From NCBI GenBank assembly GCA_028706745.1, contig JAQTVM010000006.1:1-64000 (forward strand): a DNA stretch of 64,000 bases. The letters are read 5' to 3'. A program made the translations under genes and the position numbers. The notes below the pieces were generated by a model. The model searched no databases. It was not told the origin of the DNA and saw only the letters and a program-made list of their open reading frames with translations. The stretch is from Candidatus Nanoarchaeia archaeon (GTDB lineage Archaea > Nanobdellota > Nanobdellia > SCGC-AAA011-G17 > GW2011-AR17). Below, piece after piece: positions 33,283 to 63,612 of the stretch. Every line of letters starts with the position of its first letter. The stretch's first letter is position 1.

Positions 33283-33303
33283 CTAATCCCAAGAATCTCT
33301 AGA
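33283..33303 (-). promoter_or_regulatory. 21-bp promoter element, copy A
   Basis: Minus strand TCTAGAGATTCTTGGGATTAG followed by GCTTATATAC. Confidence 0.7.
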
Positions 33304-33316
33304 TATTCTAGATATT

Positions 33317-34006
33317 TTACCTGCTCTTTTTTACACCGGTTTTCCTGCAGTATTTTCCTATAATGCATCTTGAGCAGAAAGGGCTTATCGGCTTACATAT
33401 GCTTTGCCCGTGCTTTACAAGCAATTCGTTCAATTCAAGCCATTCTTTCTTTGGGATTACCTTCATTAAGGCAAACTCTGTTTCATCAGGTGTTTTTGTC
33501 CTTGCCCATCCAATCCTGTTTGCAATGCGATGGCAGTGGGTGTCTATCGGCAATGCAGGTATTTGAAATGCGTGCGTCAGCACAATGCCTGCTGTTTTCC
33601 TTCCCACGCCTTTTATTCTCAAGAGATTTTCATATGTATTCGGGACTGTTCCATTGTGGTTTTTAAGAAGGTATTTGCTGACTTCCTTTATTCTCTTTGC
33701 TTTTGTGATATAAAAGCCGCTCGGGTAAATTGCTTTTTCAATTGTTTTCAAAGGCAGTTTGAGCATTGCTTTTGGATTGTTTGCAAGCATGAACAGGCGC
33801 TTTGCAGCAGGATAGGTGACTTCGTCTTTTGTTCTTTGGCTCAGGATGCAGCTTATTAGGACATAGAAGGCGCCTTCCTTATGATTCTTGGATATGAAGA
33901 TTGTTTTCGAATATTGCCGCTTCAAACGGCGGATAATAACTCCTGTTTGCATGCATATATTTAATCCGGGCTTGTTAAAATACATTTTGTTTTGTATGGG
34001 CAACAA
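33317..34006 (-). CDS. nth: Endonuclease III
   Basis: LISCILSQRTKDEVT, LLRIKGVGRKTAGIVLTHAF, DTHCHRIANRIGW, CSRCIIGKYCRKTG. Confidence 0.92.
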   Translation of the reverse strand: MLPIQNKMYFNKPGLNICMQTGVIIRRLKRQYSKTIFISKNHKEGAFYVLISCILSQRTKDEVTYPAAKRLFMLANNPKAMLKLPLKTIEKAIYPSGFYITKAKRIKEVSKYLLKNHNGTVPNTYENLLRIKGVGRKTAGIVLTHAFQIPALPIDTHCHRIANRIGWARTKTPDETEFALMKVIPKKEWLELNELLVKHGQSICKPISPFCSRCIIGKYCRKTGVKKSR

Positions 34007-34026
34007 AAAATTCTATGGTAATTTAA

Positions 34027-34071
34027 GTTACTAATTGGTAACCAAAAAGTTTATATAGTAACATATGTTAC
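34027..34071. promoter_or_regulatory. Palindromic operators flanking TATA box of MNT gene
   Basis: GTTACTAATTGGTAAC, TTTATATA, GTAACATATGTTAC immediately upstream of ATG 34080. Confidence 0.7.
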
Positions 34072-34079
34072 CATAATCC

Positions 34080-34661
34080 ATGGCTGGCAGGAAATTAAAG
34101 GGCATAAGCCCCCTGGAAATGAATGAAGCTTACCAAAGAGTCATGCAGTGGTTCTATTCATTTCCTACCGGATATACGGGCTTAACTGAGCTGTCTGAAT
34201 TTTTAAGCATCGCTAAAACAACGGCCCGGCGCGTTGTAATGACCCTGTCAGAGGCAGGGTTTCTTAAAGTTGAAACAATAGGGAAAATGTGGAGAATATC
34301 CTGCAATCCCTCTCATCCTTATAATTTCACGTGGAAAGTAACGTATAATCTTAATCTGATATTCTCCTCTTTTATCTTAAATGAAATTCATAAAGCTATC
34401 CCCTGCCCGAAGGCAATTATCCTGTTTGGCAGTTACAGAAAAGGCGATGACATAGAGACAAGCGACCTGGATATTGCAGTGGAAGTTATTGGGAATGAGC
34501 CGCCTAAAATAATAGAATTAGGCCGCCTTGATGATTTCGGTTACAGGAAAAATGTGCCTGTCCATCTATATGTTTTTTCAAGGAATAACATTGACATTAA
34601 CCTCTTCGCCAACATAGCAAACGGCATTGTGCTTGAGGGATTTTTGGAGGCAAGACCTTGA
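34080..34661 (+). CDS. wHTH-MNT nucleotidyltransferase
   Basis: IAKTTARRVVMTLSEAGFLKVE; IILFGSYRKGDDIETSDLDIAVEV. Confidence 0.82.
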   Translation: MAGRKLKGISPLEMNEAYQRVMQWFYSFPTGYTGLTELSEFLSIAKTTARRVVMTLSEAGFLKVETIGKMWRISCNPSHPYNFTWKVTYNLNLIFSSFILNEIHKAIPCPKAIILFGSYRKGDDIETSDLDIAVEVIGNEPPKIIELGRLDDFGYRKNVPVHLYVFSRNNIDINLFANIANGIVLEGFLEARP

Positions 34662-35059
34662 CAATCAGATATAAGCGCCCTGATGCAAAAGATGCGCTGA
34701 GCCTGGTGCAGGCTGCAAAAAGGCAGATGGATTTCACGCTAACCATGAAGCCGACTGATGATTCTGCATTTACAATTGTAAGAAATATTTATGAATGCTT
34801 CCGCATGCTGGGCGACGCGCTTTTGGTTAAAAAAGGAGTTGAATCTGACGACCATCTTGCGCCAATAAACGAACTTTTAAAATTAAAGGTGAATACTGTT
34901 CGCCCCATATTCCTGATTGATAATCTAAGGAGGCTAAGGCACAATGTAAATTATTACGGGTATTCTCCGAAGAAGGCAGAGGCTGATGATGCGATTTCTA
35001 TTGCAAAAAGCTGCTTTAACCAGTTATATGCAGCGGCACTGAGAGAAGTTGAGAAATAG
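34658..35059 (+). CDS. HEPN-domain protein partner of the MNT
   Basis: NLRRLRHNVNYYGYSPKKAEADDAISIAKSC; overlaps MNT stop. Confidence 0.72.
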   Translation: MTIRYKRPDAKDALSLVQAAKRQMDFTLTMKPTDDSAFTIVRNIYECFRMLGDALLVKKGVESDDHLAPINELLKLKVNTVRPIFLIDNLRRLRHNVNYYGYSPKKAEADDAISIAKSCFNQLYAAALREVEK

Positions 35060-35977
35060 CTATTTTGTTTTTCTGAACTTTGCTACAAAGAATCCTTCTG
35101 TGTCATTGTCCTGCGGCCACAGGCGCAGGCATTTCTGTACTTCTGAGGAGTATTTGTTTCCGTCAAACTCGTCAACGCATTTTCCGTGCTTGATGTTTAA
35201 ATCTATTTTCTCAAGCTTTGCATTCTCGTGATTTTCCAAGAACCAGCTTACGATGCCCTCATCCTCTTCAGGCTCCAAAGTGCACGTGCTGTAAACCATT
35301 GTTCCTTCTTCCTTCAGGCAGTTGAATGCAGTATCTAATAATTGTCTTTGTATGCCTGCCATTCTTCGTGAGAAATTGGGGTTCCACATCTGGATTGTCT
35401 TGAATGACTTTCTTATTGTTCCGATGCCTGAGCAGGGGGCGTCAACAAGTATTTTATCGAATGCCAAGTCCTTGAACCACCTTCCTTCCATTAGCGTTAA
35501 AACTGTGTTTGAAACGCCGCATCTCTGCAGGTTAAATCCCAATGGCTTAAGCCGAGGCATTGCATTGTCATTTGCTATTATCAATCCTGTATTGTTCATC
35601 ATTGCGGCAATCTGCGATGTTTTTGAGCCGGGAGAAGCGCACATGTCAAGAACCATCTCATTATCTTTTGGGTTTAGCACAACAGGGGGTATCATTGAGG
35701 CGGCGCCCTGCACGTAAAAATAGCCCAGGAAATGCTCGGGAAGGTTGCCTATTCCTGTGCCTTCTGTAAAAAAGCCTTCCTTGCACCAGGGAATTTGCCG
35801 GAGCTTTGCCTTTGATTCCATTCGTGTCTTAAAATCCTCAACACTGCACTTGATTGTGTTTACTCTTAATGTCTTTCTCAAAGGCTTTACTGAAATGTCG
35901 AGAAATGTTTCTATGTCAGTTAAATTCCTGTATCGTTCAATGAACTTTTCTTTCCATTCAGGATTTCCCATTGTCAC
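35060..35977 (-). CDS. RNA cytosine-C5 methyltransferase (NOL1/NOP2/Sun family)
   Basis: MVLDMCASPGSKTSQIAAMM, LVDAPCSGIGTIRKS, YSTCTLEPEEDEGIV. Confidence 0.92.
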   Translation of the reverse strand: MTMGNPEWKEKFIERYRNLTDIETFLDISVKPLRKTLRVNTIKCSVEDFKTRMESKAKLRQIPWCKEGFFTEGTGIGNLPEHFLGYFYVQGAASMIPPVVLNPKDNEMVLDMCASPGSKTSQIAAMMNNTGLIIANDNAMPRLKPLGFNLQRCGVSNTVLTLMEGRWFKDLAFDKILVDAPCSGIGTIRKSFKTIQMWNPNFSRRMAGIQRQLLDTAFNCLKEEGTMVYSTCTLEPEEDEGIVSWFLENHENAKLEKIDLNIKHGKCVDEFDGNKYSSEVQKCLRLWPQDNDTEGFFVAKFRKTK

Positions 35978-36067
35978 TTCGTTCCAAGCCTCCCTTCATT
36001 GCATTTGAGAGGCATATTTCTATTAGCTACCGTCAGCTTTATAAAGATAATGCTGTTTTAAAGTCCT

Positions 36068-36400
36068 ATGTTTCATCCCGGAAAGGTTACGGGCATTTTC
36101 AGCCCAAAGGACAAGGAAGTTCATTCAGCAGATGATTCCACGCAGGCTCTTGTTGAGATGTGGGACGAGAATTTGTTTACCTGCATGGTTGACCCGAAGA
36201 TAGCTGCAAAGCTGAAAGAAGGCGACGTTGTGCTTGTTGATTACCGCCCTGTTTCTGAGAAATCAACTGTTCCAAAGCAGATTATCTCGAAGATTGTTTA
36301 CAAGAAGAAGGCTTCAATGCTGTGGGAGCAGTATGCTGAATACAAAAGGCAGAGAAAGCAGGAAACTTCAAAGCAGCAGCAGAAGACGTATATGGGGTAA
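36068..36400 (+). CDS. Conserved-looking hypothetical protein
   Basis: 110 aa ORF, compact basic C-terminus. Confidence 0.6.
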   Translation: MFHPGKVTGIFSPKDKEVHSADDSTQALVEMWDENLFTCMVDPKIAAKLKEGDVVLVDYRPVSEKSTVPKQIISKIVYKKKASMLWEQYAEYKRQRKQETSKQQQKTYMG

Positions 36401-36523
36401 TGTAGTTAGTAGTAAGCAGTTGGCAGCGGGCTTGCAGCTCCTGCAAAAAAGGCAGGCTTGCCAGCATTAATTTTTAAATTAATTTGTTTTGAGAATAAAA
36501 GAAATAAAAAAAAGAAAATAAGC

Positions 36524-37549
36524 TTATTGTGTTGGCTGAGGTATCGGCGTCATATTGGTGTCATAGATGTAAAAGTCTGCGCTTGCACTGCTTCCGACAA
36601 CCATTTCCTGCTGCACTGATATCTTCCCTGTCACGACTTCGGATTCATATCCGCCAAAACTGCCCCAGTTGTATGTGTAGTGCAGATAGTTGTCAATTCT
36701 CTGCATATGCGCTGTTGCCTCGCTTTGCGCCCTGTTGTAAGCTTCCATTACTGTGATTTTGCCGTCAACATTTGCGTCCGCCTCTCCGTCAGTCATATTC
36801 TGGAAGAAGTAAGAGCCGCCTGAGAAATACCTGTCTCCCCATCCGTAGGTGTGGCTGCCTGTTGTTGAGATTGCGACATACTCAGGCAGGTTAAGCTGGG
36901 CTATGAATGCGCCTGAATGGCAGGCATCGCTGTAGAGAATGCCAAATCCCGGGTTGATTTTATCAACGCTTTCCTGCACTTCCCTGGCTGTCCACGCTGA
37001 GAAATATCCGTCTGCCTCCAATTCAAGGAAACTGGGAGCCCCGTGGGTTCCTATGTACATTGCAAAGATGTCATTGCTGTCAACAAGCCCTGCAAACCTT
37101 CTTAAATGGAGATTTATGTTTGCCTCTGTTGCCTTGTTGTCATATGTTCCGTTGAACTGTTCTTCCTTTACCATTTGTATTGCCCTTGCTTCCAGCGTGT
37201 CTGTGAAGTCAGGGTCTCCTGTTGAATAAAGAAACCTGATGTTTTCCGGCTGGAATCCCATTTCCCTTAATGAGTCATAAACCCTTACTCCTCCGAGCCA
37301 GAAGAAGTTCTTGTCTATCGGATCTGACAAGTCAGCCCCTCTTTCTCCTCTTCCGCTTGCCACGACTACAAATGCGTATTTTGTTACTTCATTGCCGTTC
37401 GGCTGCAGTTCATTCATGCTTAACGGCATTCCGTGCAGTTCTGCATTTTCCGTGGCATCAAGAACTTCTGTCTCAAAGTCATTTACCTTTACTGATGCTG
37501 GCAAAAGCGCAAGTGCTGCGCCCGCGGCTATAGCGTATAGAGATTTCAT
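36524..37549 (-). CDS. Secreted caspase-like (clan CD) protein with EF-hand-like motif
   Basis: Signal peptide; FAMYIGTHGAPSF; ILYSDACHSGAFI; DANVDGKITVMEAY. Confidence 0.72.
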   Translation of the reverse strand: MKSLYAIAAGAALALLPASVKVNDFETEVLDATENAELHGMPLSMNELQPNGNEVTKYAFVVVASGRGERGADLSDPIDKNFFWLGGVRVYDSLREMGFQPENIRFLYSTGDPDFTDTLEARAIQMVKEEQFNGTYDNKATEANINLHLRRFAGLVDSNDIFAMYIGTHGAPSFLELEADGYFSAWTAREVQESVDKINPGFGILYSDACHSGAFIAQLNLPEYVAISTTGSHTYGWGDRYFSGGSYFFQNMTDGEADANVDGKITVMEAYNRAQSEATAHMQRIDNYLHYTYNWGSFGGYESEVVTGKISVQQEMVVGSSASADFYIYDTNMTPIPQPTQ

Positions 37550-37718
37550 TTTATCACTCCCTTCTTAATTCTAAACGTAGTTATTTTGTATGCAATTATA
37601 AATGTTTGTATTGCTTTGCAAAAAGAAACCTCTTGAATATGGTGAAAAAAGGCGGTAAGGGGGAACCCCAATGCGCCGACCGGTATTCTCACTCTCGTTC
37701 GAGACCGTTCGCCGCTGA

Positions 37719-37790
37719 TGCGCCGACCGGGATTCGAACCCGGGTCACAACCTTGGCAAGGTTGAATTCTAACCACTAAACCATCGGCGC
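37719..37790 (-). tRNA. tRNA-Gly(GCC)
   Basis: Minus strand GCGCCGATGGTTTAGTGGTTAGAATTCAACCTTGCCAAGGTTGTGACCCGGGTTCGAATCCCGGTCGGCGCA; anticodon GCC. Confidence 0.95.
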
Positions 37791-37848
37791 TTATGCTCTT
37801 TTCCTTCAATTAAGAGATATTTATAAAGGTTATGGTAAGCCGGGGCAT

Positions 37849-38421
37849 TTACGGATTTATCTTTATCTCTATGTTCGGAAGATTGTCTGCTTCATACGTG
37901 CCTGTGTGCTGTATGGTAACACTGTAAGTCCCTGCAAAAGGACCTGAGAAAGGGCTGGTAAGATTTAAGTGCGCAATGCCTGTATAGTCAAGCTTCAGGT
38001 ATGCTATGTACTCGCCGACAATGTTTGTTTCTTTTGCAAACATGTATAAGTCTCCTTCCCTGAATTCCGGAATTCCTGTTGATATGTCTCTGAAATCATA
38101 GTTCGGCTCCATCATCTTTGCCTGAGTTTTCATTGACCAGATAACCTGGCTGTTTGTTTGGTCTACATTGAATTCTCCTGTCTTGATTTCAAACGGCGAC
38201 ATGTATCTTCTTGAGCCCGGACCTTCATTGATTACATTCTTCATGTTTTCGTTCACTGTGTAGAATACTGTCTTTGCCTGCGAGAATGAGTTCTTGTCCT
38301 TCATCTTCTGTATCATGGGAACGCCTGCGGCAAGCACTATTGTAAGCACAATTACTCCCAAAGCCATGTACAAAACTGCAGATATCCAAACGTCGCCTTT
38401 TCTGTTTCTCATGTGTATCAC
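37849..38421 (-). CDS. Pilin-like/membrane-anchored secreted protein
   Basis: NRKGDVWISAVLYMALGVIVLTIVLAAGVPMI N-terminus. Confidence 0.65.
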   Translation of the reverse strand: MIHMRNRKGDVWISAVLYMALGVIVLTIVLAAGVPMIQKMKDKNSFSQAKTVFYTVNENMKNVINEGPGSRRYMSPFEIKTGEFNVDQTNSQVIWSMKTQAKMMEPNYDFRDISTGIPEFREGDLYMFAKETNIVGEYIAYLKLDYTGIAHLNLTSPFSGPFAGTYSVTIQHTGTYEADNLPNIEIKINP

Positions 38422-38466
38422 TTCATATTAAAAGAAAATAAAAAAAGAAAAAATAAAGTTAGGTTC

Positions 38467-39051
38467 TTATGCGCTACAAACCGTTAAGGGGTCATCATAA
38501 TTCTGATCCCCATAATAATCCTTTGTAGCTGCACAGGTAAGTATTTTTTCTCCTACTTTGATTACAGGAACTATCTCTACCAAGGTGGCTAGTTCTGCTT
38601 TATCCTCAACGGGAGAACCTACCGGCATTGTCACTTCTGTTGTTTCTAACCCATATGCTGAAATCGTAAGCGTATCTGTTCCCGCTGTATTTTTAAGTGG
38701 GGATACACTGCTTACCTGGCTTCCATCAATATAGAATCTTGCTGAAACACTTTCAAGTGCTTTGCTGCCATCATTTTTTATTGTTAATTTGATTTTATTG
38801 CAATCTGGCGTAGAAATGGGATCGTCATTTTCTGTGCATCCTGCATCATTAATTATGCAAGCTGATGACAAGTCAATATTAACATCCTGAGCACATGCCA
38901 ACTGCTCTTCAGTCGTTGCTTCTGTTGTCTTCTGCATTCCTTTAGAGAACGTCGTTCCCCACGTCATTATGATTGCTGCAAGAGCAACCGTAAACCCTAT
39001 TATTAACACCGTTGCAATTAACGGCGATATGCCTTTCCTAAACATTTTCAT
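38467..39051 (-). CDS. Archaeal type IV pilin-like protein
   Basis: Class III signal-like MKMFRKGISPLIATVLIIGFTVALAAIIMTWG. Confidence 0.8.
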   Translation of the reverse strand: MKMFRKGISPLIATVLIIGFTVALAAIIMTWGTTFSKGMQKTTEATTEEQLACAQDVNIDLSSACIINDAGCTENDDPISTPDCNKIKLTIKNDGSKALESVSARFYIDGSQVSSVSPLKNTAGTDTLTISAYGLETTEVTMPVGSPVEDKAELATLVEIVPVIKVGEKILTCAATKDYYGDQNYDDPLTVCSA

Positions 39052-39146
39052 TTACTCAACCTCCTTTATATTGAACATAAATGTTCATAGAAAATAAGGG
39101 TTTAGGATTATATAAAGGTTTTTATTGCTATTTTGCGATATTTTGC

Positions 39147-39314
39147 CTATTGCTTTTCCATTTCTTCTTTATATTTTAACCGATATTTGCCCCATTTATC
39201 CTCAGGGCTATACTTGGCAGGCTTGTTAGAAAGTGCAACAGAACCGCATTTAGGGCATTTTTCCTGCATTGTGTAAACACCGCATTTCTTGCAGTATAGA
39301 ATATGTCGAACCAT
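39147..39314 (-). CDS. nop10: H/ACA RNP protein Nop10
   Basis: MVRHILYCKKCGVYTMQEKCPKCGSVALSNKPAKYSPEDKWGKYRLKYKEEMEKQ, 55 aa, absent from ORF track. Confidence 0.9.
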   Translation of the reverse strand: MVRHILYCKKCGVYTMQEKCPKCGSVALSNKPAKYSPEDKWGKYRLKYKEEMEKQ

Positions 39315-40109
39315 TTACTCTTCCCTTTTGAAGCTGCCTTTGCCTTTTAATTTTTCAATCTCAGATATTATTGCAGTGCAAACCTGCTCCAAGGCTTCTT
39401 CAGCTGTCTTGAAATCGTGGAATGTCAATTCAACCCTGTAATGCGGAGCGCTTCCATAAGTTATTGAACCCTTGTACTTCTCTGCTTTTATCATCTCTTC
39501 GCCAGCCAATAATGCTTTCTTGATTACTTCAACGCCGTTCTCCTCATTGCTTTCAAGAGTAAGCTCAGCAACAACTTTTGCCTCAGGCGGCTTTATTCTT
39601 TCCTTTACAATGTCTGCAATCTCTTTTATGTATTCTGCAGGAAGCTGAATCTCCCTCAATAAAGCATCGCCGTTCATTGCAATATCCTGGAAGCAGACTG
39701 TCAAAGAGCCGCATTCCTCAATAATCTTGTTGCCTGCCTTTGCATATACTTCTTCCAAGGTGGTGTTCAGCTTATGCGCAACAAATTCAAGAATCTTCTC
39801 AGCCTTCTGCTCCTGCTTGTAGTCTTCCTCTTTCTTTAATCTCTGCTGCAAAGAAACCCTTCTTAATGACAAGTCAATGGTTCCCCTGTCCCTGTTCAAT
39901 TGAAGAACCTTGCAGACAACCTGCTTGCCTTCCTTTACATAGTCCCTTATGTTTCTTATTCTTCCGGGAGCTATCTCAGAGATATGAATCATCGCTTCCC
40001 TGTTTGCGTATTCAATCATATCAACGAAAACAGAGTGAGGAAGTATTTTCCTTACAGTGCAAAGCACAATTTCCCCTTCGTCAGGAATCCCTTTCTTTGT
40101 GTACGCCAT
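39315..40109 (-). CDS. Translation initiation factor aIF2 subunit alpha
   Basis: S1 domain IPDEGEIVLCTVRKILPHSVFVDMIEYANREAMIHISEIAPGRIRNIRDYV. Confidence 0.93.
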   Translation of the reverse strand: MAYTKKGIPDEGEIVLCTVRKILPHSVFVDMIEYANREAMIHISEIAPGRIRNIRDYVKEGKQVVCKVLQLNRDRGTIDLSLRRVSLQQRLKKEEDYKQEQKAEKILEFVAHKLNTTLEEVYAKAGNKIIEECGSLTVCFQDIAMNGDALLREIQLPAEYIKEIADIVKERIKPPEAKVVAELTLESNEENGVEVIKKALLAGEEMIKAEKYKGSITYGSAPHYRVELTFHDFKTAEEALEQVCTAIISEIEKLKGKGSFKREE

Positions 40110-40152
40110 ACCGAGTATATGACAGAAAGGTGTTGTTTATAAAAGTTTGCTC

Positions 40153-40320
40153 TTAAAGAACTTCTAACACTTTTGCCTTGACGTTTGCCTTGCCGCCTGC
40201 AGGAGCAGCCAAAACAGCGCCGCAGACAAGGCACTTTGCCTCTGTTGCGCACTTTCCGAAAATTACCTGCTCATTCTTGCAGTTTGAGCATTTTACCCTT
40301 ATGAATTTTCCCCTGTCCAT
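40153..40320 (-). CDS. rps27e: Ribosomal protein S27e
   Basis: MDRGKFIRVKCSNCKNEQVIFGKCATEAKCLVCGAVLAAPAGGKANVKAKVLEVL; absent from ORF track. Confidence 0.9.
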   Translation of the reverse strand: MDRGKFIRVKCSNCKNEQVIFGKCATEAKCLVCGAVLAAPAGGKANVKAKVLEVL

Positions 40321-40327
40321 TTTTTAT

Positions 40328-40648
40328 TTAAGCGTGAGCTACCTCCACTTTCTTTGCCCTTTGTCCTATGAAAATCTGGCTTTTTCCGCAGCCTGAACAC
40401 TTGAGTATTAAGTTGACTTTCTTGCTTTTCTTGACATTGTAGCGCTTCCACTTGCTCATTGCGCCTCTTGAAACGCTTCCCCTGTTGCCAAATCCCCTGT
40501 CGAGTCCTCTCTTTTTCATTCTTGTTCTTGAACCTCTTGACATTGGATGAACCTTGTTCTTGCCCTGCTGCCTGTTCTGGGAGACTGTCATCTCCTTGTA
40601 TGCGTTGCACTTCGGGCAAAACTTTTTCATCTTTTTCGGTATTTTCAT
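40328..40648 (-). CDS. rpl44e: Ribosomal protein L44e
   Basis: MKIPKKMKKFCPKCNAYKEMTVSQNRQQGKNKVHPMSRGSRTRMKKRGLDRGFGNRG; start trimmed. Confidence 0.9.
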   Translation of the reverse strand: MKIPKKMKKFCPKCNAYKEMTVSQNRQQGKNKVHPMSRGSRTRMKKRGLDRGFGNRGSVSRGAMSKWKRYNVKKSKKVNLILKCSGCGKSQIFIGQRAKKVEVAHA

Positions 40649-40649
40649 T

Positions 40650-41309: not shown

Positions 41310-41456
41310 CTCAATGTGAGGAATGTGTTTTGTTTTATAAGGATTTCGGAACGCAGTGACGAAATCCTATGAATGGAGTGAATATGGATTTCGGAAATGG
41401 AAAATATCCCTCGTGAAAAATAAAGAGGGCTAAGAAGAAAATAATAACGAGATTAA

Positions 41457-53590: not shown

Positions 53591-53594
53591 TAAA

Positions 53595-55242: not shown

Positions 55243-55246
55243 ATCT

Positions 55247-55282
55247 AACATCTTTTTTTCTTTTTTTTAAATCTTTTTTTGT
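55247..55282 (+). terminator. T-rich archaeal terminator
   Basis: ATCTTTTTTTCTTTTTTTTAAATCTTTTTTTG. Confidence 0.65.
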
Positions 55283-55294
55283 ATAGGGGGAACC

Positions 55295-55789
55295 ATGGCT
55301 GATGCAAACACCAAACTAATCAGAAATGCCCTGGAATTCGCAAGGCAGGGCAAGGATGCATTAGCGGCAAACATGAATTCTTTGAATGAATACAACAGGA
55401 AAAACAATCCAGAAGCAAGAAAAAGCGACTATTCTCTGAAAGACGAAAAGCCAAAAAGGCTGAAAACTGACTTTGCAAGGAAAATCCAGTCAGTAGGGGA
55501 CTTATGCGCTGAGATATACTATCAGATTGAGGAGAATCCTGAGAGGATGCTTGAACTGCCTGTATTTGACGAAATGAGGTCAACTATCTACATGGCTCAA
55601 TTGCAGTCTGCAAGAGGGATTAATGACCCAGAAAAAAGGAACGGTGGGCTTAAAAATATCTACAGAAGCATCCAGCACGAAATAATGAGCGGCCTGGGGC
55701 TTAAGGATGCAGAAGAGCAGAAAGAGCTTTCCCTGGAGCAGCAGATTGAAATCAGCTCAATGTTCGGCAGGAGGTACTTCGGAATATGA
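55295..55789 (+). CDS. Hypothetical protein, distant paralogue of 54925-55242
   Basis: FDEMRSTIYMAQLQSARGINDPEKRNGGLKNIYRSIQHEI aligns with FDDLRVSTWEATLQRADKEKNPAEKYGMKSKLYGEISQV. Confidence 0.6.
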   Translation: MADANTKLIRNALEFARQGKDALAANMNSLNEYNRKNNPEARKSDYSLKDEKPKRLKTDFARKIQSVGDLCAEIYYQIEENPERMLELPVFDEMRSTIYMAQLQSARGINDPEKRNGGLKNIYRSIQHEIMSGLGLKDAEEQKELSLEQQIEISSMFGRRYFGI

Positions 55790-56916
55790 AAATCCTCGCC
55801 GTCTCAGATATCCACATAGGAAGAGAGAAAGAAAACATTGATTATGCAAAGGCATTTGCAAGGTACGCAGAATCCTCAAACCCTGACTTAATTATAATGG
55901 CAGGGGATATCGCAGAATACACTTATGACAATGAAAGGCAGATGAATCAGTATATAATGAATGCGCAAAAAATGCTTGCGATAACAGAGTCAGAATTGCA
56001 CAGGAGAAGAAGGCACAAGGCAATAGAGCTTACTCCTTACGAAACAGTATGCGCTTCTGCAATCGTGGCAGAGGAATTATTAAGAAAGCCGTTTCCAGAG
56101 GACTGGAAGGAAACTGCAAGGGCGCATTTACAATCTATCAAGGATGCAGAATGGGTTATGAACAATTACTATGCTGTTTTCGAGCACATGTTCAGGGCTG
56201 TCAAGGGCAAGATATTAGCGATTCCTGGCAATCACGACATAAACCTCGAGGACACTATACTTAGAGAGCTTAATATTGACAGAAAAGCAGTTCAAAGACA
56301 GGGCTTAAAGATTTATGGTTACGGAGGTGCAGCATTCCGAAACGGCTCGCCTCTTTTTTCAAGGATACCTTCTGAAATTACGGCGCCTTTTAATGAATAT
56401 GTTGAGCAAAAGGCCAACGAGGCAACCGGCATTTTGGAAGGCAGGATTGTTTCAGAGCCGCAAAGACTTTTGGAAAAAGAGCAGCCGGACATCGCAGTAC
56501 TGCACACCCCTCCCTTCGGCGTTTTGGACATGCCTGTGCATTTGAAGGATGAGAAAATGCCTGAAGAGCAGAAGCATTTGGGAAGCCCCGGCGTAACAGA
56601 GTATGCAAAAAGCGGAAAAACAAAGCTGATACTCTGCGGACATGTGCACAGCTCTCCGGGAATCATAAGGGTTCCGTCTGAGAATTCAGAGCTTGTTGCT
56701 GTTGTCAATTTGGGCTGTCTTGGCAAGACAGAATCAGAGGGTGGCTCGTTTGCAGAAATTGAAATGGACGAGAAGGGATTTCAGTCAGCAAGGTTTTATG
56801 AGATGATTACACGGGGAGACAATCCTCTGGTTGCAATGAAAAGAATGTTCATAAGAAAGAACAGGGCTGTTATTGACGAGATTTACCTTAGCGGTGAAAT
56901 GCCAAGCAGGGATTAA
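55786..56916 (+). CDS. Calcineurin-like metallophosphoesterase
   Basis: KILAVSDIHIGRE, LIIMAGDIAEYT, ILAIPGNHDINLED, LILCGHVHSSPG. Confidence 0.9.
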   Translation: MKILAVSDIHIGREKENIDYAKAFARYAESSNPDLIIMAGDIAEYTYDNERQMNQYIMNAQKMLAITESELHRRRRHKAIELTPYETVCASAIVAEELLRKPFPEDWKETARAHLQSIKDAEWVMNNYYAVFEHMFRAVKGKILAIPGNHDINLEDTILRELNIDRKAVQRQGLKIYGYGGAAFRNGSPLFSRIPSEITAPFNEYVEQKANEATGILEGRIVSEPQRLLEKEQPDIAVLHTPPFGVLDMPVHLKDEKMPEEQKHLGSPGVTEYAKSGKTKLILCGHVHSSPGIIRVPSENSELVAVVNLGCLGKTESEGGSFAEIEMDEKGFQSARFYEMITRGDNPLVAMKRMFIRKNRAVIDEIYLSGEMPSRD

Positions 56917-56967
56917 AATAATTCCGCGAGGATAGCTTTTTCTCATTTTCTTCAAATATCTAGAATA

Positions 56968-56988
56968 TCTAGAATATCTTGGGATTAG
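56968..56988 (+). promoter_or_regulatory. 21-bp promoter element, copy B
   Basis: TCTAGAATATCTTGGGATTAG followed by CCTTATATAG. Confidence 0.7.
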
Positions 56989-57061
56989 CCTTATATAGCG
57001 TCCGCAGGGCTTTTTCTCTTATTCCGGAAATCATGTAAGATTTTCAGGAAGGAGGAAAACG

Positions 57062-57457
57062 ATGGAAGACAAAACAAACCTGCTGGAAAAGGAAGTGACA
57101 TGCTTAGAAATTTCGGATGGCGAAATTTCTGGCATGCTCAAGAACCGCGAGTTCTTGACAGACGAGAAAAAAACGCTAAACCTGGAAAACGAGTCAGCGG
57201 CAAAGCTGTTCTCAATATTCGGTCTTGACTTTAGCTATTGTCAGCCTTTAATGCAGTCAAGCCCTTCGTGCAGAGGCTCTGCGTACTCCTTGTGTCCAAG
57301 GGAAAAGCCGTTCCGCGCCTCCGGCTTTGACATTGCATTTCAAAGGGCTGTAAACCCGTTTGGCAGTTTTTATGACTTGCTTAGGGGAAACAGAAGCAGC
57401 TATTCTTACAGCCTGCCTTGCGACATTGGGGCAATGGGCAGTTTCGGGAGGATGTAA
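57062..57457 (+). CDS. Hypothetical protein
   Basis: RBS-like aggaagga, upstream promoter; Ser/Gly/Phe-rich C-terminus. Confidence 0.6.
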   Translation: MEDKTNLLEKEVTCLEISDGEISGMLKNREFLTDEKKTLNLENESAAKLFSIFGLDFSYCQPLMQSSPSCRGSAYSLCPREKPFRASGFDIAFQRAVNPFGSFYDLLRGNRSSYSYSLPCDIGAMGSFGRM

Positions 57458-57459
57458 AA

Positions 57460-57762
57460 ATGAAATCCTTGACAGAAACAGTTTTGGAAGAGCCGTGCCT
57501 TAATTTGGAGACGTACAGCTATTCAGTGCTTTACTCAAGCAGCTTTGGAAGCGGGGGTAGAAGCAGCTTCGGAAATGCCGGCTTGGAATTAGATGGAGGC
57601 ATGAGAATCAGCGATAGCAGCACTAAAAATACATTATTCATCGTTGAGGATTTAGGCGGGGGCTTTAAGCTGGGTTATTCATATCACGATGGCGGATTTG
57701 GAAGATGCGAGCTGAGCCTTAAGGGGTACGGAAAGCTATTCGATATATTTAAGGGAGAATAA
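57460..57762 (+). CDS. Small Gly/Ser-rich protein with duplicated N-terminal module
   Basis: MKSLTETVLEEPCLNLETYSYSVLYSSSFGSGG, near-identical to 58132; start trimmed. Confidence 0.65.
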   Translation: MKSLTETVLEEPCLNLETYSYSVLYSSSFGSGGRSSFGNAGLELDGGMRISDSSTKNTLFIVEDLGGGFKLGYSYHDGGFGRCELSLKGYGKLFDIFKGE

Positions 57763-57763
57763 A

Positions 57764-58135
57764 ATGGGCTCATATCACTTTTTTACAAAGGAAGATTGCA
57801 TCTCTTTCCCTGATGATTTAAGGCTGAAAATTGAAAAGCTTGGAATGGACCTTGGCAGGGTGTTTGAATCCCGCGCTAAGCTGGATAAGGCGGATTTTTC
57901 AAGGCAATATTTGCAGATAATAAGGGAGATTCTGCTGCTTGCCTTAAGCAACCCTGATAATTTTTCAGGCAAGATGATAGCGTCACTAGGGGAAATACCG
58001 GGCATTGAAGATATTGAGCTGTCTTCAGATTGTGAAGAAGCTGTAAAATGCCTTATGGATGCAGAGCTTAAAGGGAATTTGCACTTGTTTTTGCAGGAAA
58101 TCGCAGACAAGATAAAGGCGGTATTGGAAAAATGA
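57764..58135 (+). CDS. Hypothetical protein
   Basis: 123 aa ORF in a tight operon-like array. Confidence 0.6.
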   Translation: MGSYHFFTKEDCISFPDDLRLKIEKLGMDLGRVFESRAKLDKADFSRQYLQIIREILLLALSNPDNFSGKMIASLGEIPGIEDIELSSDCEEAVKCLMDAELKGNLHLFLQEIADKIKAVLEK

Positions 58136-58428
58136 AATCACTCACAGAAACAGTTTTGGAAGAGCCGTGCCGTAATTTGGAGACGTACAGCTATTCAGTG
58201 CTTTACTCAAGCAGCTTTGGAAGCGGGGGAAATGACCCTTTCCTTTACGGCTATGACATGCCCGGGCTGGGAGTGCAGGTACACTTTCACGGACCTGACG
58301 AAGACCACCTTACATTTGGCAAGGTAAAAAGCTACGAAGGAGAAACCCTTACAAGAATAAGGGACAGCTGCGAGCTTGCAATGCTTGACTACAATGCATT
58401 GTCATCCGGCTTGAAGAGGTTCCCATGA
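58132..58428 (+). CDS. Small protein with duplicated N-terminal module
   Basis: MKSLTETVLEEPCRNLETYSYSVLYSSSFGSGG then a divergent C-terminus. Confidence 0.65.
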   Translation: MKSLTETVLEEPCRNLETYSYSVLYSSSFGSGGNDPFLYGYDMPGLGVQVHFHGPDEDHLTFGKVKSYEGETLTRIRDSCELAMLDYNALSSGLKRFP

Positions 58429-58682
58429 AAGAAGCAGAACAGCAGGCTGTAAAGGACCTTGTGGAGTTTTACCAATACTACGCAAGAAAAGGCATTGATG
58501 AATTCCTGAAAAAGAAGGCAAGGGAGATAGAGCAGAAGTACCTGAATGCCTCGCCGTTGATACACGAGGAAGTTGACCAGGCAATCGGATTGCTTGTTGA
58601 CTTCTATGCAGAGACAGGCATAATGCCTCCTTCAACAGAAACTGCAAGGAAGATAGTGGAAGCTTTGAAGAAGCTGGAGTAA
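58425..58682 (+). CDS. Small hypothetical helical protein
   Basis: ATGA overlap with upstream gene; 85 aa. Confidence 0.6.
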   Translation: MKEAEQQAVKDLVEFYQYYARKGIDEFLKKKAREIEQKYLNASPLIHEEVDQAIGLLVDFYAETGIMPPSTETARKIVEALKKLE

Positions 58683-58738
58683 GAAATGGTCTGCGAACAG
58701 AGTGAGTGGACCTTTGAACGCAGCGGAGCGAAGTGAAA

Positions 58739-59113
58739 ATGCAAACTGCAATTCAGGAAATTACCCCTAAAGAAAATGAAGTAGTTGAATTGCAGCCGCC
58801 TTCCCTACAGGAACCGCAAGTTTTCTTTTCTTTTCTTTTAGAAGACACTCTGCCTTTGAAGAAAGAATCTCCACTTATAAGCAAGGAAGCTCTTTTGAAA
58901 ATTATAGAAGAAAACAATACGGGAATTGAGAATAAAATAAAAGGGGATGTTTTACAAGAAGACGACGAAGAGGAATACGCAAAAGAAACAACTTACGAAA
59001 CTGAAAACTCTTACATTCAAAAGAATCCGTATGCGCCAACAAAGGATTATGAAAGGATTGATTTTCTCAAGCCGAAAGAAAAGGAGGAAGAAAAATCTTT
59101 CCTATGGAAATGA
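58739..59113 (+). CDS. Hypothetical acidic protein
   Basis: MQTAIQEITPKENEVVELQPP...; ATG 58739 is an alternative start. Confidence 0.5.
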   Translation: MQTAIQEITPKENEVVELQPPSLQEPQVFFSFLLEDTLPLKKESPLISKEALLKIIEENNTGIENKIKGDVLQEDDEEEYAKETTYETENSYIQKNPYAPTKDYERIDFLKPKEKEEEKSFLWK

Positions 59114-59505
59114 GCTTTGCAGTATTTTTCACAAGCATAGGGAATGCGGGATTCAAGGGAAGTTCCTTGGGCGCTTCAGGAAACTTCGACTGCGGGCCTT
59201 ACGGCTTCGGGAGGGGCTCGCCTTATTATAGGGGACCGCCTGAGCCTGAAGTCAAGATAACGAGAATGGAACTGCCTGTGCCGGCTGTTGTTCCTGTTTA
59301 TGTGCCAATTCCGCAGCCTGTAATTCAAAAGCCTGTTGAAATTGAAATCTACAAATTAGAATTAAGAGAAGAGGAAACCAGCCTCAGGATGCGCAGCGAA
59401 TTCTTCTTTAAGGGATTTGGGTTCGAAATCAAAGAGTCTTTTGAGTATGACTACAACAAGAAAACAAGCTTATTGGATATAATAAAAGAAAAAAGAAGGG
59501 CTTAA
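59104..59505 (+). CDS. Hypothetical Gly-rich/Pro-rich protein
   Basis: MEMSFAVFFTSIGNAGFKGSSLGASGNFDCGPYGFGRGSPYYRGPPEPE. Confidence 0.55.
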   Translation: MEMSFAVFFTSIGNAGFKGSSLGASGNFDCGPYGFGRGSPYYRGPPEPEVKITRMELPVPAVVPVYVPIPQPVIQKPVEIEIYKLELREEETSLRMRSEFFFKGFGFEIKESFEYDYNKKTSLLDIIKEKRRA

Positions 59506-60302
59506 GCCTTCTCTATATACTTCTTAATCTCTTCCACGAACTCTTCAGCCATTCTCCTGTACTTGCTGTACTCCTCTCCGGTTACTTCAGGCTTTGCCCT
59601 GTTTGTTATCTCCTTGAACAGCTTGTAGAAAGCCCTCATTGTGTTTGCCGCTTTTTGGCTGACGTGCTTCTTGGGAATAAGAGTTTTTTCCATCAGGTCT
59701 GCAACGTGTTCGGGAGAAGGGGGTATTTCGCCGTACTTCATCAGGGCAGCATGCGCAGAATCAATCACAGCCCAGTACAGGTCAATTGTTGCTGCAAGCA
59801 TTGTATTCTTTGATTTTGCCAATGCAGCGGGAGCCATTACAAAATAAGTGTATATTGCTTCTTTAGAGGGTCTTATCCTTCCCTCGTCCAATAAAGCTTG
59901 GAGAGGATCAAAGAATCCGGTATCAACCAGCGCAATCCCATACCTGAGTATATTAATTGCAACAGGGTCCCCCACTCTTACATACTCCCAAAAGCTTGTG
60001 AACTTCATTGACTGGATGTGCAGCTTTTTCTTGTCAGTGTCAGCCACAATCTTCTCAATTATTATCCTGTATGTCTGCACAACTTCTTCAGAGAACTTCA
60101 TTCTTACGTCGTCCAGGATGATTAAGATGTCAACATCTTTTCTTTCTTTGCCTTCCTGGGCTGTTGAGCCGAACAATACGATTGCTTTTATGAAGTCGCC
60201 GAATTCTTTCCAAACCCTCTGCGAAAACTTTTGCGCCAGGGCAAATTCTGCTTCAGGGTAAGCAATTTTCTTTTTTTCCTTTTTCTGGACCTTAAATTTC
60301 AT
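59502..60302 (-). CDS. Nucleotidyltransferase with C-terminal HEPN-like helical region
   Basis: IVLFGSTAQEGKERKDVDILIIL; helical C-terminus LYWAVIDSAHAALMKYG. Confidence 0.75.
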   Translation of the reverse strand: MKFKVQKKEKKKIAYPEAEFALAQKFSQRVWKEFGDFIKAIVLFGSTAQEGKERKDVDILIILDDVRMKFSEEVVQTYRIIIEKIVADTDKKKLHIQSMKFTSFWEYVRVGDPVAINILRYGIALVDTGFFDPLQALLDEGRIRPSKEAIYTYFVMAPAALAKSKNTMLAATIDLYWAVIDSAHAALMKYGEIPPSPEHVADLMEKTLIPKKHVSQKAANTMRAFYKLFKEITNRAKPEVTGEEYSKYRRMAEEFVEEIKKYIEKA

Positions 60303-60491
60303 TGTTATTCACCTCATTTTGAAAGGCGGCTCACGTGCCTCCTTTTTTGTTGATTTATTAGTATTTATACCTTTACTCTATCGGCGCGCCGGACCACCAA
60401 GTTGCCAAGCAAACTGAAGTCAGTTTGATCAACAGGGCGGGCTAAAGCCCACCTGTACGTATTTATGGCTCTTTTGATATTTATGTTCATT

Positions 60492-62321
60492 TTACTCTAT
60501 TGGTGCGCCTGACCACCAATTATCTTCCTGGCTCTGCGGGTTAATCAAGTATCCGCCTGTCATGTACCTTGGAGTATGTGTCTGCCCGAAATAGCTGCCT
60601 GAAATGTCAGTCCATTTCTTGTCAACATTGCCTACCCTGTACATTGGAGACGATGCAATCTTTGCCCATGCTCCGAACATTGAGCCGTGAATGCTTTCCC
60701 CTTCTCCCTGCGCTCCAGGCTCGATAACCATCTTGTCCTTAAGTCCTGCTTTCACAACCTCTTTCATGAAATCCTCTATTGGGACATTTCCTTCTCCGGG
60801 AGATAAATGCTCGTCATAATAACCGAAATTGTCCGCTATATGCACGTGCCCTATTATGCCTTCCTGCAGCAGCTGCTTTGCCTCTTTCATGAACCATTTC
60901 TTGAATTCAGCATCACTGCCCTGGAAATACTTCCTCCAAGTGTTTGCGTGCCCTATGTCAAAAGTAGCTTTTATGTGCTCTGCAGCAATCTTGTTTGCCT
61001 CTTCTTCCGGCACGCGCTTTGCTTTCAGCTTTTCAGCCATTGCCGCTCTTGACTCCTTAATTATATCCCTTAATTCCTGCGGATGACTGCCATACTGCTC
61101 AGCAAACACATTTTCAGGCGCGATATATAATGGCTTTTTCAGCTTCCTGTCCTTTTCAATCTGATAAGCGTACATTCCCAGCTCTGCAATATTTTTGGCT
61201 GACTTCTCAAGCGCATATTGTTTTAGTGTTTTAATATTGCCTTCCATGCCTTTTTCCTTGTTTCCTATCTCCAAATCAACTTCCCTTTCCTGCCTTCCTG
61301 CGGCTGCGGAGTTTTCATAGGCATAAGAAATCTCTTTTTTTATCTGTTCTGTCGCCTTGCCAAGGAACTTTTGGGGGTTGTTAAGGAATTCCCTGTATTC
61401 TTCGGCAGATTCCTTGTGCGGCGCAACACCTGTCTGCTCTGCATATCTCATTGCCGCATAATCAGCAGCTTCCTTGTCCTTTTTTGCAAGTTCTGACACT
61501 GAATCCTGCATTTGTTTGACCATATCATATTTCTTTTTATATTCTTCAGCCATTGTTTCCCATCTTTTCTTTTCAGCAGATGCCTTCAGCCTTTCTTTTT
61601 CCATGAACTTGCTGAAGAAAATCTTTTCAGGCGGCTGGTTTGTCCTCTTGCCTTCCTCAACAAACTCGTCATAGCTCATGTTTTTGTAAACATACTCTCC
61701 TTTCGCGTCCCTCTTTGGCACCTGCACCCCGTTCTGTTCTTCCCACTCAACAACAGGCACTGTATAATCCCTTGGAAGCATTGCCTTCATCCTGCCGTTC
61801 TTGTCAACAATTCCCCACACTGCCTTTTTCTGCTCATCCTTGTGCGCAAGAAAATCTTTTCCTGATTCACAGATTGGTCTTGGGAATTCTCCTGTGTGTA
61901 TGACAACAGGGCCTCCTTCTGCAGTGTCTGCCGCAAAATCAATGGCTCTTTTTACTTCAAAAACAGCCTGCGCGGCAATATTGTCGTCAAACCTGTCTTC
62001 CCTGAATCCTGCAAAACCCATCACGTTTGCAGATGCGTGGGTGCTTAATGTTACCTTATTTATTTTTGCAAACTGCCTGATATCCTCTCTCTTGGTTTTT
62101 CCTATGATTTCAGGCGTTACAGACGTGGGGCTGGACAAGCTTCCCTTGTTCATTCCCATAAATCCCAGTTCAACGTGAGAAGCGCCTGCAGTTACGGCTG
62201 TCTTTATGGACGTCCAGGGGTCGCCTATTCCCATGGAAATGCCTAGGTCTTTTGCAGCTATGTCAACGCCTTCAAGACGCTTTTTTCCGCTGCTCCAATA
62301 GTCGTTTCCGAAGTCCACCAT
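60492..62321 (-). CDS. Large xylose-isomerase-like TIM-barrel protein (AP endonuclease 2/sugar isomerase superfamily)
   Basis: GASHVELGFMG, PVVIHTGEFPRP, ATFDIGHANTW, GHVHIADNFGYYDEHLSPGEGNVPIEDFM. Confidence 0.75.
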   Translation of the reverse strand: MVDFGNDYWSSGKKRLEGVDIAAKDLGISMGIGDPWTSIKTAVTAGASHVELGFMGMNKGSLSSPTSVTPEIIGKTKREDIRQFAKINKVTLSTHASANVMGFAGFREDRFDDNIAAQAVFEVKRAIDFAADTAEGGPVVIHTGEFPRPICESGKDFLAHKDEQKKAVWGIVDKNGRMKAMLPRDYTVPVVEWEEQNGVQVPKRDAKGEYVYKNMSYDEFVEEGKRTNQPPEKIFFSKFMEKERLKASAEKKRWETMAEEYKKKYDMVKQMQDSVSELAKKDKEAADYAAMRYAEQTGVAPHKESAEEYREFLNNPQKFLGKATEQIKKEISYAYENSAAAGRQEREVDLEIGNKEKGMEGNIKTLKQYALEKSAKNIAELGMYAYQIEKDRKLKKPLYIAPENVFAEQYGSHPQELRDIIKESRAAMAEKLKAKRVPEEEANKIAAEHIKATFDIGHANTWRKYFQGSDAEFKKWFMKEAKQLLQEGIIGHVHIADNFGYYDEHLSPGEGNVPIEDFMKEVVKAGLKDKMVIEPGAQGEGESIHGSMFGAWAKIASSPMYRVGNVDKKWTDISGSYFGQTHTPRYMTGGYLINPQSQEDNWWSGAPIE

Positions 62322-62366
62322 AGTGTTTTCTCCTCTTGGAATAAGTGTTTTGAGGGCTTATAAACC

Positions 62367-62430
62367 TATTGTCGCTTTGCTCCAAATCCCTCTCGCTTGG
62401 CTCGCAGGATATTGTCGCTTTGCTCCAAAT
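62367..62430. repeat. Two copies of a 21-nt direct repeat
   Basis: TATTGTCGCTTTGCTCCAAAT at 62367-62387 and 62410-62430. Confidence 0.85.
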
Positions 62431-62521
62431 AGCCCGCTTATTGGCGGACTATAATGGAAATGAAAGAAGGAGGCTGGAATTATTGGTTTTTTATCATTTA
62501 TAGAATTCTAACTTCTTTATA

Positions 62522-63031
62522 TTACCCTTCCATTTCTTCCTTTGCTTTCATAAGCGCTGCCTTTGCCTGCCTGGACAGCTCGTCGTAAAGATTTTCTTTT
62601 AATGAAAGCGATGTCCCATATTGGTACATCTCCCTTAATTCTAAACAGGTGTATTCTATTGACTCGTTTGTGTCCATAAGTGCTATCTTGTCAAGCATTT
62701 CTCTATCAAAGCTTATCTTTTTGCTTTCTATCAGCCAATTAATCAAGGCAAATGTGCATTCCTGGTTTCTTGACTCAAAGCCGTGCTTTGCAGCTATTGC
62801 AAGAAGGCAGTGGTACATTGAGTAAAACAACGTGCTTGCGCAGATGTCAGAGAAATTGCCCTTGTGAAGCCAATCGCTTGCAAGGATATAATGCTCTGCC
62901 TTGGCTATGTGCGCATATGCTTTTTCCTTGCTTGGCTTAGCCTGAATTAATCCCCTGTGCTTCTTTCCATTTTGAAGCTCCTTTTCCGCCTTTCTCAGGC
63001 ACCATTCGACTTTGTTATTTGCATGGCTCAT
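62522..63031 (-). CDS. HEPN-domain protein
   Basis: HYILASDWLHKGNFSDICASTLFYSMYHCLLAIAAKHGFESRNQECTFALINW; resembles 42620-43129. Confidence 0.8.
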   Translation of the reverse strand: MSHANNKVEWCLRKAEKELQNGKKHRGLIQAKPSKEKAYAHIAKAEHYILASDWLHKGNFSDICASTLFYSMYHCLLAIAAKHGFESRNQECTFALINWLIESKKISFDREMLDKIALMDTNESIEYTCLELREMYQYGTSLSLKENLYDELSRQAKAALMKAKEEMEG

Positions 63032-63612
63032 CTTGAAAGCAATTCAAGAAAATTGTCTTCTCCTATAACGACAACTCCCTTAACCGCATCAAGAACTGCC
63101 TTTTCGTGGTTTTTAAAGCTAATCCCAAGAATATCTAGAGTGGTATAGATACTGTGCACTTTTTTTGTATTTACCTTGTTTATCGCTTCCACCTCTTTTT
63201 TCAGGTCTGCAAACTTCTTTTGCCCAGTGGCAAGCAAAACATCAACATCATTTGCCTTATCCTGCTTTTGGAGCACAGAGCCGAAGATAACTGCGATTTC
63301 CGCATTCTTTACCTTTCTTATTTCCCTTATCCACATTTTAATGTATGGGGGCGCTTCTTCTGCCTCTTTCATTAAGAGAAATCTAAGGTATTGCTTAACA
63401 TACTGGCTTTCAAAGGAAATGCTGTAAAATCTTGCCCTTCCCATCTCTTTTAGCTTGATTATGCCTTCTTTTTCCAGCTTTCTCGCTATCTTTAATGCAC
63501 CCATTGGGCTTATGTTCAGTTCCTTTGAAATGCTGTTTGCGTTATACTCCTGTTCGGGGCTCTTAAGGACAGTTAGCACGAACTGCATTTCTGTGCCGGA
63601 TATGTTTTCCAT
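63028..63612 (-). CDS. wHTH-MNT nucleotidyltransferase
   Basis: NSISKELNISPMGALKIARKLEKEGIIKLKE; AVIFGSVLQKQDKANDVDVLLA. Confidence 0.82.
   Translation of the reverse strand: MENISGTEMQFVLTVLKSPEQEYNANSISKELNISPMGALKIARKLEKEGIIKLKEMGRARFYSISFESQYVKQYLRFLLMKEAEEAPPYIKMWIREIRKVKNAEIAVIFGSVLQKQDKANDVDVLLATGQKKFADLKKEVEAINKVNTKKVHSIYTTLDILGISFKNHEKAVLDAVKGVVVIGEDNFLELLSR
63119..63139 (-). promoter_or_regulatory. 21-bp promoter element, copy C (inside MNT coding sequence)
   Basis: Minus strand TCTAGATATTCTTGGGATTAG followed by CTTTAAAAACC, about 80 nt before HEPN ATG. Confidence 0.55.

Follow-up and report, generated by a model that had tools for sequence, protein, structure and literature searches.

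The window analysed here is a stretch of 64,000 nt from a Candidatus Nanoarchaeia archaeon (contig JAQTVM010000006.1), and it carries a toxin–antitoxin (TA) operon of the MazE/MazF type, a cluster of small-protein genes and a nucleotidyltransferase (NTase)–HEPN gene pair, all three of which share a TCTAGA-based promoter element (sites A, B and C; Table 1). The SSU and LSU rRNA found in the window are archaeal. Here we show how these sites belong to a set of ten in the genome. Judging from the sequence, the element is probably the site of a lineage-specific regulator of the Lrp/AsnC family, whose regulon it would define and which we predict to be an activator. The proposal that a single transcription factor co-regulates the TA pair, the HEPN gene and the small-protein array, made in an original prediction on this DNA, is very probable. 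That prediction called the factor unknown, however, and for this an autoregulated Lrp/AsnC protein is now a strong candidate.

The element and its sites in the genome

The three 21-bp copies from which the prediction started are exact in position and strand. Matches to this 21-mer with up to three mismatches are expected 0.09 times by chance, and three of them were reached in none of 100 shuffles. The second, adjacent ATATCTAGA reported for A and B is present as well, but the conserved unit extends well beyond 21 bp, to approximately 41 bp including the TATA box. In full, the element consists of three 9-bp units followed by GATTAG and abutting an archaeal TATA box that begins one or two bases further on (ATATCTAGA ATATCTAGA ATATCTTGG GATTAG n CTTAWATA). 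Its internal period is 9 bp, and TCTAGA-ATA-TCTAGA is an inverted repeat of 15 bp whose centre is AT-rich; a third half-unit is added to this repeat. The register of the TATA box is fixed within 1-2 bp, both among the genomic sites and across genera. Across genera the most constant part is GGATTAG, which abuts the position of the transcription factor B recognition element (BRE).

The three loci named originally turned out to be part of a larger set, as a pattern scan of the 1.24-Mb genome (G000) with up to three mismatches yielded ten sites, compared to zero for the reversed pattern at the same tolerance. A sequence-only profile (R1), made from nine of these sites with copy C left out, was used to rescan the genome; the nine sites scored 43-54 bits, copy C scored 21.9 bits (E 1.7e-4), and the next best match 9.5 bits. 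In the genome-wide scans, at most 150 candidates per genome were scored at the initial pass. The site set is thus small and sharply bounded. Rather than being scattered without promoter association, nine of the ten sites are intergenic, aimed at the next gene and followed immediately by a TATA box, which upholds the element as a real, shared promoter element throughout the genome.

The distance to the start codon varies between targets. For the non-TA sites S7, S8 and S9, the TATA box of the element lies 27-31 nt before the ATG, making these leaderless, and for B, S4 and their relatives it lies 70-114 nt before the ATG; no second TATA box was found in the promoters of this latter group. Directly before S7, approximately 100 nt downstream of a tRNA, the 3' end of that tRNA (CTCGCGGCCTCAT) is duplicated (L026:4790-4950, G000:C7), possibly as a remnant of integration.

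An Lrp/AsnC gene among the targets

Site S4 precedes the gene of a 161-aa Lrp/AsnC protein (G000:C32:41525-42007), which matches HTH_24 over the cut-off (3e-5) and AsnC_trans_reg below its Pfam cut-off (1.8e-4). When its profile was compared with known structures, the Lrp-family structures of Pyrococcus were closest, the best being PH1519 (2.1e-21 for positions 2-135, 134 residues, and hence most of the protein). Members of the Lrp/AsnC class are recognised by an N-terminal winged helix-turn-helix (wHTH) and a C-terminal RAM/AsnC domain in about 15-18 kDa, and the 161-aa protein agrees with this. Orthologues are present in most of the family, with a profile search recovering them in 16 of the 18 family genomes.

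The TCTAGA-type element stands before the Lrp gene in G000 and in its relatives G016 and G017. Elsewhere in the family the Lrp promoters carry a diverged element in the same register (e.g. TATAGATTATATGTACTTCATTGGGATTAGAACTTTATAG in G012), and at least four genera have the element in this register at the Lrp promoter. Position weight matrices trained with one genus left out at a time gave a best match of p≤0.022 against shuffles in 12 of the 16 Lrp upstream regions, including those of G003, G001 and G010, which had never been part of the training set. In this test G017 was borderline (0.050), and the upstream regions of G002, G006 and G005 failed. Moreover, no target other than the Lrp gene is common to the different genera with sites. 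By eye only, degenerate forms of the element were seen at Lrp orthologues of other families (L132 GTATATAATTTATATGGATTAG, L130 GTATATAACTTTTAAGGATTAG). Since the element occupies an autoregulatory position at the promoter of Lrp itself, this protein is a strong candidate, and we predict that it is probably the binder of the element.

Distribution and recoding in the family

To describe the family as a whole we used a second model (R2), which contains ten Lrp promoters by construction, so that only its non-Lrp sites count as independent finds. At E≤1e-4, sites were present in 11 of the 18 family genomes, whereas the 85 genomes from elsewhere in the order had none; matches at E 0.006-0.05, which is the noise level in genomes without Lrp, were left uninterpreted. 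A GTDB-wide scan for the exact pattern matched only a near relative, the metagenome-assembled genome 'Nanoarchaeota archaeon Yes70-37', which is the nearest named relative with the element and places the present archaeon in the DPANN group. One R1 match in G009 (L033) was set aside as chance, being an antisense overlap of coding DNA that has neither GGGATTAG nor a TATA box.

In genus g7 the sites are followed by a lipoprotein operon (M..LEKLVLGA.TLVSLSGC), whose ATG comes approximately 26 nt further on, and the site of G004 stands before a similar short lipoprotein-like gene. The g7 loci L081, L082, L083, L084 and L091 share a conserved operon under the element, made up of a short lipoprotein, small secreted proteins and a large surface protein. 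As far as can be read from the targets, the theme of the whole family is Lrp together with genes for secreted proteins, peptides or membrane proteins; in genus g1, TA control stands out. The comparison of sites indicates a regulon larger than three loci, conserved within the genus and also, with an altered sequence, within the family.

A change of this kind was found in G015, a sister species and congener of G000 with an Lrp that is 67% identical. The TCTAGA model (R1) finds no site in this genome. Instead, the element reads TTATATAA in place of TCTAGA, and the corresponding pattern TATATAAWTTATATAAWTTATATGGATT occurs at exactly four sites with zero mismatches; it gave no match in G000, G016, G017 or G012, and neither did the reversed pattern. 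The four sites precede Lrp, a 75-91 aa peptide with a radical SAM protein and a methyltransferase, a DUF4258 and YgiT/AbrB TA pair, and a membrane/coiled-coil protein. The latter three targets are homologous to TCTAGA-type targets in G017 or G000, at 63%, 85% and 40% identity, respectively. The same substitution, from the C/G of TCTAGA to A/T, is found in all units at all G015 targets, which a repeat family or coincidence would not leave, and which one DNA-binding protein changing its specificity would. We thus read the operators of G015 as having been recoded in step with a single DNA-binding factor.

The recoding also bears on whether the copies might be a dispersed repeat or the end of a mobile element, such as a miniature inverted-repeat transposable element or an integration site. 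Such an origin, for which one could cite that TA modules are mobile and that S7 lies beside the duplicated tRNA 3' end, is highly improbable, as homologous loci keep the element even while its sequence is recoded in G015. Furthermore, the flanks are unrelated between copies, with similarity in the 5' untranslated region (UTR) only at orthologous or related loci, all copies are oriented alike relative to the TATA box and to the gene that follows, and an exact-pattern scan of viral contigs found no copy. A repeat or transposon end was therefore rejected, there being no homology beyond the element and a constant promoter register.

In G017 (L032) and G015 (L097) the element heads a cassette of three genes, which encode a Cys-containing peptide of 67-91 aa in which a CAAIP motif recurs, a radical SAM enzyme and a methyltransferase. 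No specific NCBIfam equivalog was found for this radical SAM enzyme, and the cassette is a candidate for a new archaeal system resembling those for ribosomally synthesised and post-translationally modified peptides.

Toxin–antitoxin targets and their probable stacked promoters

Five of the ten targets in the genome are TA operons (A, C, S5, S6 and S10), in a genome that has approximately ten HEPN and ten PIN matches. Further TA loci under the element are L035, L037, L038 and G015_C46 in relatives. The pairs are adjacent and co-directional, and comprise MazE/PemK, PIN_2 with VapB (NF050799), YafQ/ParE-like, Polbeta/HEPN, and DUF4258 with YgiT/MazE; several of these family matches are below curated cut-offs, and the toxin and antitoxin roles are predicted. 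Assuming that 5-10% of transcription units are TA operons, the binomial p for enrichment is 6e-5 to 1.6e-3, a range that depends on this assumed background rate and on a category picked after the data were seen. In the TA pair at L035 (G017) and L092 (G015) the toxin is short and DUF4258-like, and its partner antitoxin has a YgiT zinc finger and an AbrB/MazE domain in one protein.

In six TA promoters (A, S5, S6, S10, L037 of G016 and L035 of G017), the element is found 77-157 nt upstream, with another TATA box 31-85 nt before the presumed start. This second box is present in all six TA promoters analysed versus none of nine non-TA promoters (Fisher 2e-4), a difference inflated by the leaderless non-TA targets, in which a second TATA box could not be accommodated. 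The DUF4258 locus of G015 (G015_C46) fell outside this start-codon-pattern analysis and was read by eye. A palindrome, of a type that serves TA proteins in repressing themselves, accompanies the second box in A, S5, L037 and L035, with individual p values of only 0.04-0.07, and is not clear in S10. From this anatomy we infer that intergenic TA operons have stacked promoters, with the regulon promoter distal and the TA module's own promoter proximal.

Site A is an example of such stacking. It had been put forward as the promoter of the AbrB/MazF operon, and it is indeed located upstream, but nearer to the start there is a second TATA box with the palindrome GTAAGAAAATTCTTAC, which is probably the auto-operator of AbrB/MazE. 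This palindrome is identical at the MazEF orthologue of G017, where the distal element has decayed. The longer AbrB/MazE open reading frame (ORF) starts at 33257, upstream of the proximal promoter, and the ATG at 33185 is likely the real start.

Table 1. Sites A, B and C and the genes and promoters around them, in window coordinates.
Feature	Position	Strand	Score or evidence
Site A: element AATATCTAGAATATCTAGAGATTCTTGGGATTAGG and abutting TATA box CTTATATA (33281-33274)	33274..33316	(-)	47.5 bits
Proximal TA promoter: TTTATAAG (33224-33217) and palindrome GTAAGAAAATTCTTAC (33217-33202)	33202..33224	(-)	
AbrB/MazE antitoxin gene	32922..33185	(-)	Pfam MazE_antitoxin 2.2e-11
MazF/PemK toxin gene	32596..32949	(-)	Pfam PemK_toxin 6.3e-19
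Site B: element AATATCTAGAATATCTAGAATATCTTGGGATTAGC and TATA box CTTATATA (56990-56997)	56955..56997	(+)	53.6 bits
Small-protein cluster downstream of B	57062..59505	(+)	
ORFs of the cluster	57062-57457, 57460-57762, 57764-58135, 58132-58428, 58425-58682, 58733-59113, 59104-59505	(+)	
Site C: GTATCTATACCACTCTAGATATTCTTGGGATTAGCTTTAAAA, within the NTase ORF; TATA-like CTTTAAAA (63118-63111)	63111..63152	(-)	21.9 bits
wHTH-nucleotidyltransferase (MNT-type), 194 aa, containing site C	63028..63612	(-)	Weak HTH_24 and Polbeta matches
HEPN-type gene	62522..63031	(-)	Gene order; resembles the HEPN protein encoded at S10 (AKxGxESRNQ motif in both)
Own promoter/operator of the NTase–HEPN operon: TATA-rich direct/inverted repeat ATATAAACTATTAGTTTAGAT x2	63614..63657	(-)	Repeat kept in G016 and G017

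Site C within the nucleotidyltransferase gene

Copy C does lie upstream of the HEPN gene, as had been claimed, at 88 nt before its ATG, but it is not intergenic and sits inside the preceding NTase ORF. The product of this ORF is probably the antitoxin of the HEPN gene, whose own protein gave no match in a Pfam search. The first unit of site C is one base out of register. We consider it rather likely that the site is functional, although a coding coincidence, in which the site merely reflects the peptide LDILGI and has no promoter role, is a possibility with some weight, for this copy as well as for its counterpart in G016 (L038). The score of 22 bits, compared to 43-54 for the other sites, and the spacing variants would suit such a coincidence, as would the conservation of the peptide in the G016 and G017 orthologues, in which GATTAG reads GATAAG. 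Conversely, the codons of site C form the most codon-conserved 13-codon window of the gene, with 11 of 13 identical in G000, G016 and G017 and a synonymous conservation of p 0.016, 0.035 and 0.052 for the individual pairs, and the NTase paralogues do not encode the peptide. In addition, the second NTase ORF in G016 (L038, C121) has a similar site (21.8 bits); its position is non-homologous, and here too a HEPN gene follows directly. A further NTase-type protein (59502-60302, minus strand) is encoded between the B cluster and the C locus, making the right end of the window dense in NTase/HEPN genes.

The small-protein cluster at site B

The first gene of the B cluster has a Shine-Dalgarno-like AGGAGG, and its first three proteins are without a Pfam match. 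An orthologous cluster is found under the same element in G016 (L041). Two of the proteins (57460-57762 and 58132-58428) have a near-identical N-terminus, MKSLTETVLEEPCxNLETYSYSVLYSSSFGSGG, and unrelated C-termini, and a third protein with an N-terminus of this type is encoded in the G016 cluster, as if these proteins were built of a leader and a core. Just upstream of site B ends a gene for a calcineurin-like phosphoesterase (55786-56916, plus strand). Such a gene also ends just upstream of two element sites in G016 (L040 and L041), which makes the order of phosphoesterase, element and small proteins syntenic. Pieces that resemble hairpins by eye suggested RNA structure in the B-type 5' UTRs, an idea that was dropped since RNAalifold predicted no pairs on five UTRs.

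Discussion

How would a regulator act from such an element? Archaeal Lrp dimers recognise imperfect inverted repeats of 13-17 bp with an AT-rich centre, which are often clustered, and in the case of the activators Ptr2, LysM and Ss-LrpB, which act via the TATA-binding protein (TBP), one dimer site is placed immediately before the BRE with little freedom of position (PMC2995911). Both properties are found here, in the 15-bp inverted repeat and in its constrained distance of a few bp from BRE and TATA box. In the mechanism that we propose, the Lrp-type protein would bind TCTAGA-N3-TCTAGA, the third half-unit and GATTAG as a dimer or higher oligomer, and would then recruit TBP in the manner of Ptr2 and Ss-LrpB, whose sites likewise lie immediately before the BRE. 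For its own gene, the small-peptide clusters and the small membrane-protein genes, the element would serve as the sole recognisable promoter. At TA operons it would instead serve a distal second promoter, through which the regulator may raise TA transcription independently of TA autorepression, and at site C transcripts would start that contain the HEPN gene but not its nucleotidyltransferase partner.

Since the inverted repeat lies directly upstream of BRE and TATA box, activation is the somewhat better guess, compared to repression. A regulator that represses, with the element as an operator that blocks transcription factor B (TFB) and TBP and brings about negative autoregulation, we regard as rather unlikely, yet several points speak for it. 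GATTAG overlaps the position of the BRE, the own promoters of the TA modules would stay available, and the related FL11 is a repressor that is amplified by its effector (PMC2995911). LrpA, however, exerts its repression from downstream of the TATA box, and it is activators that typically have their sites immediately before the BRE (PMC2995911). Moreover, the element at TA operons, with its own TATA box, lies approximately 45-105 nt upstream of the TA promoter, and could not occlude it.

Several findings must be weighed against the Lrp protein as the regulator of such a regulon. G005 and G006 have Lrp orthologues without a recognisable element. The presence or absence of Lrp versus that of sites, tried as proof, goes in the right direction with a p of about 0.1, which is weak on its own and was kept as weak support; G009 and G014 lack both, but their genomes are incomplete. 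Neighbouring Lrp dimer sites are two or three helical turns apart (PMC2995911), and the spacing of the units, 9 bp from centre to centre, departs from this; that rule concerns multiple dimer sites, none of which are recognisable in the element, as it holds one full dimer site and a half-unit only. The sites in g7 and G004 serve lipoprotein or short secreted-protein operons, so that TA control is a feature of a genus and not universal. Lastly, site C is weakly scored and imperfectly spaced, and the spacing at L038 is irregular too.

Could the element then be bound by a different transcription factor, or mark an alternative promoter class specific to a certain TFB or TBP, with the Lrp gene as merely one of the targets? 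This we consider unlikely. It would be in line with the Lrp orthologues that lack an element, and GGATTAG, being located at the BRE and the most constant part across genera, could suit a basal factor. Nonetheless, a promoter class of a basal factor should far exceed some ten members, the 15-bp inverted repeat with its AT-rich centre fits Lrp dimers (PMC2995911), and having Lrp as the only target common to the genera with sites is what autoregulation usually leaves.

Among proteins of solved structure, the one closest to the candidate Lrp regulator is the feast/famine regulator FL11 of Pyrococcus horikoshii, which we equate with PH1519 on the basis of the common PDB entries 2E1C/2ZNY (E 2.1e-21 over 134 residues). 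FL11 is autoregulated, binds short palindromes as dimers and longer stretches as octamers, and regulates many units (PMC2995911). It differs from the predicted regulon in its 13-bp palindrome and in its metabolic targets (lysine, ATPase) in about 200 units, where we find about ten sites, with TCTAGA (or TATATA) half-sites in 9-bp steps, whose targets include many TA modules, peptides and surface proteins. Ptr2 of Methanocaldococcus jannaschii and Ss-LrpB of Sulfolobus solfataricus are alike in having a site directly upstream of BRE/TATA, further upstream sites, and autoregulation (PMC2995911). Their site sequences are different, however, and their targets belong to redox, central metabolism and transport, with no TA operons listed. 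Autoregulated type II TA promoters (MazEF, VapBC, MNT/HEPN) have a proximal TATA box and a palindrome before the antitoxin gene, as do the present ones (e.g. GTAAGAAAATTCTTAC, ACACTGATTTCAGTGT); what sets the latter apart is a distal promoter stacked upstream, with the element of a common trans-regulator, which in the case of MNT/HEPN can sit inside the antitoxin ORF. In the open-access literature we found neither a transcription-factor regulon with a defined site described for this part of the DPANN archaea, nor an archaeal case of several TA modules controlled by an Lrp protein.

Taken further, one might tentatively propose that a single Lrp master regulator captured unrelated TA modules through stacked promoters, that its operator in the NTase gene transcribes the HEPN toxin alone, and that regulator and operators were re-specified together in the sister species, although we hold this whole chain of events to be doubtful. 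In that case, the separate transcription of the HEPN toxin would uncouple the supply of toxin and antitoxin on a signal.

With a named candidate factor, a 41-bp site and a closed list of targets, the regulon is testable, and the swap between TCTAGA and TATATA specificity in sister species may be used to map the recognition residues of Lrp. TA modules are usually viewed as self-regulated. The present findings suggest that they can also sit together under one trans-acting switch, including one with an operator hidden in the antitoxin gene, and the list of targets makes it approachable what use such a regulon would be to a presumably host-dependent archaeon.

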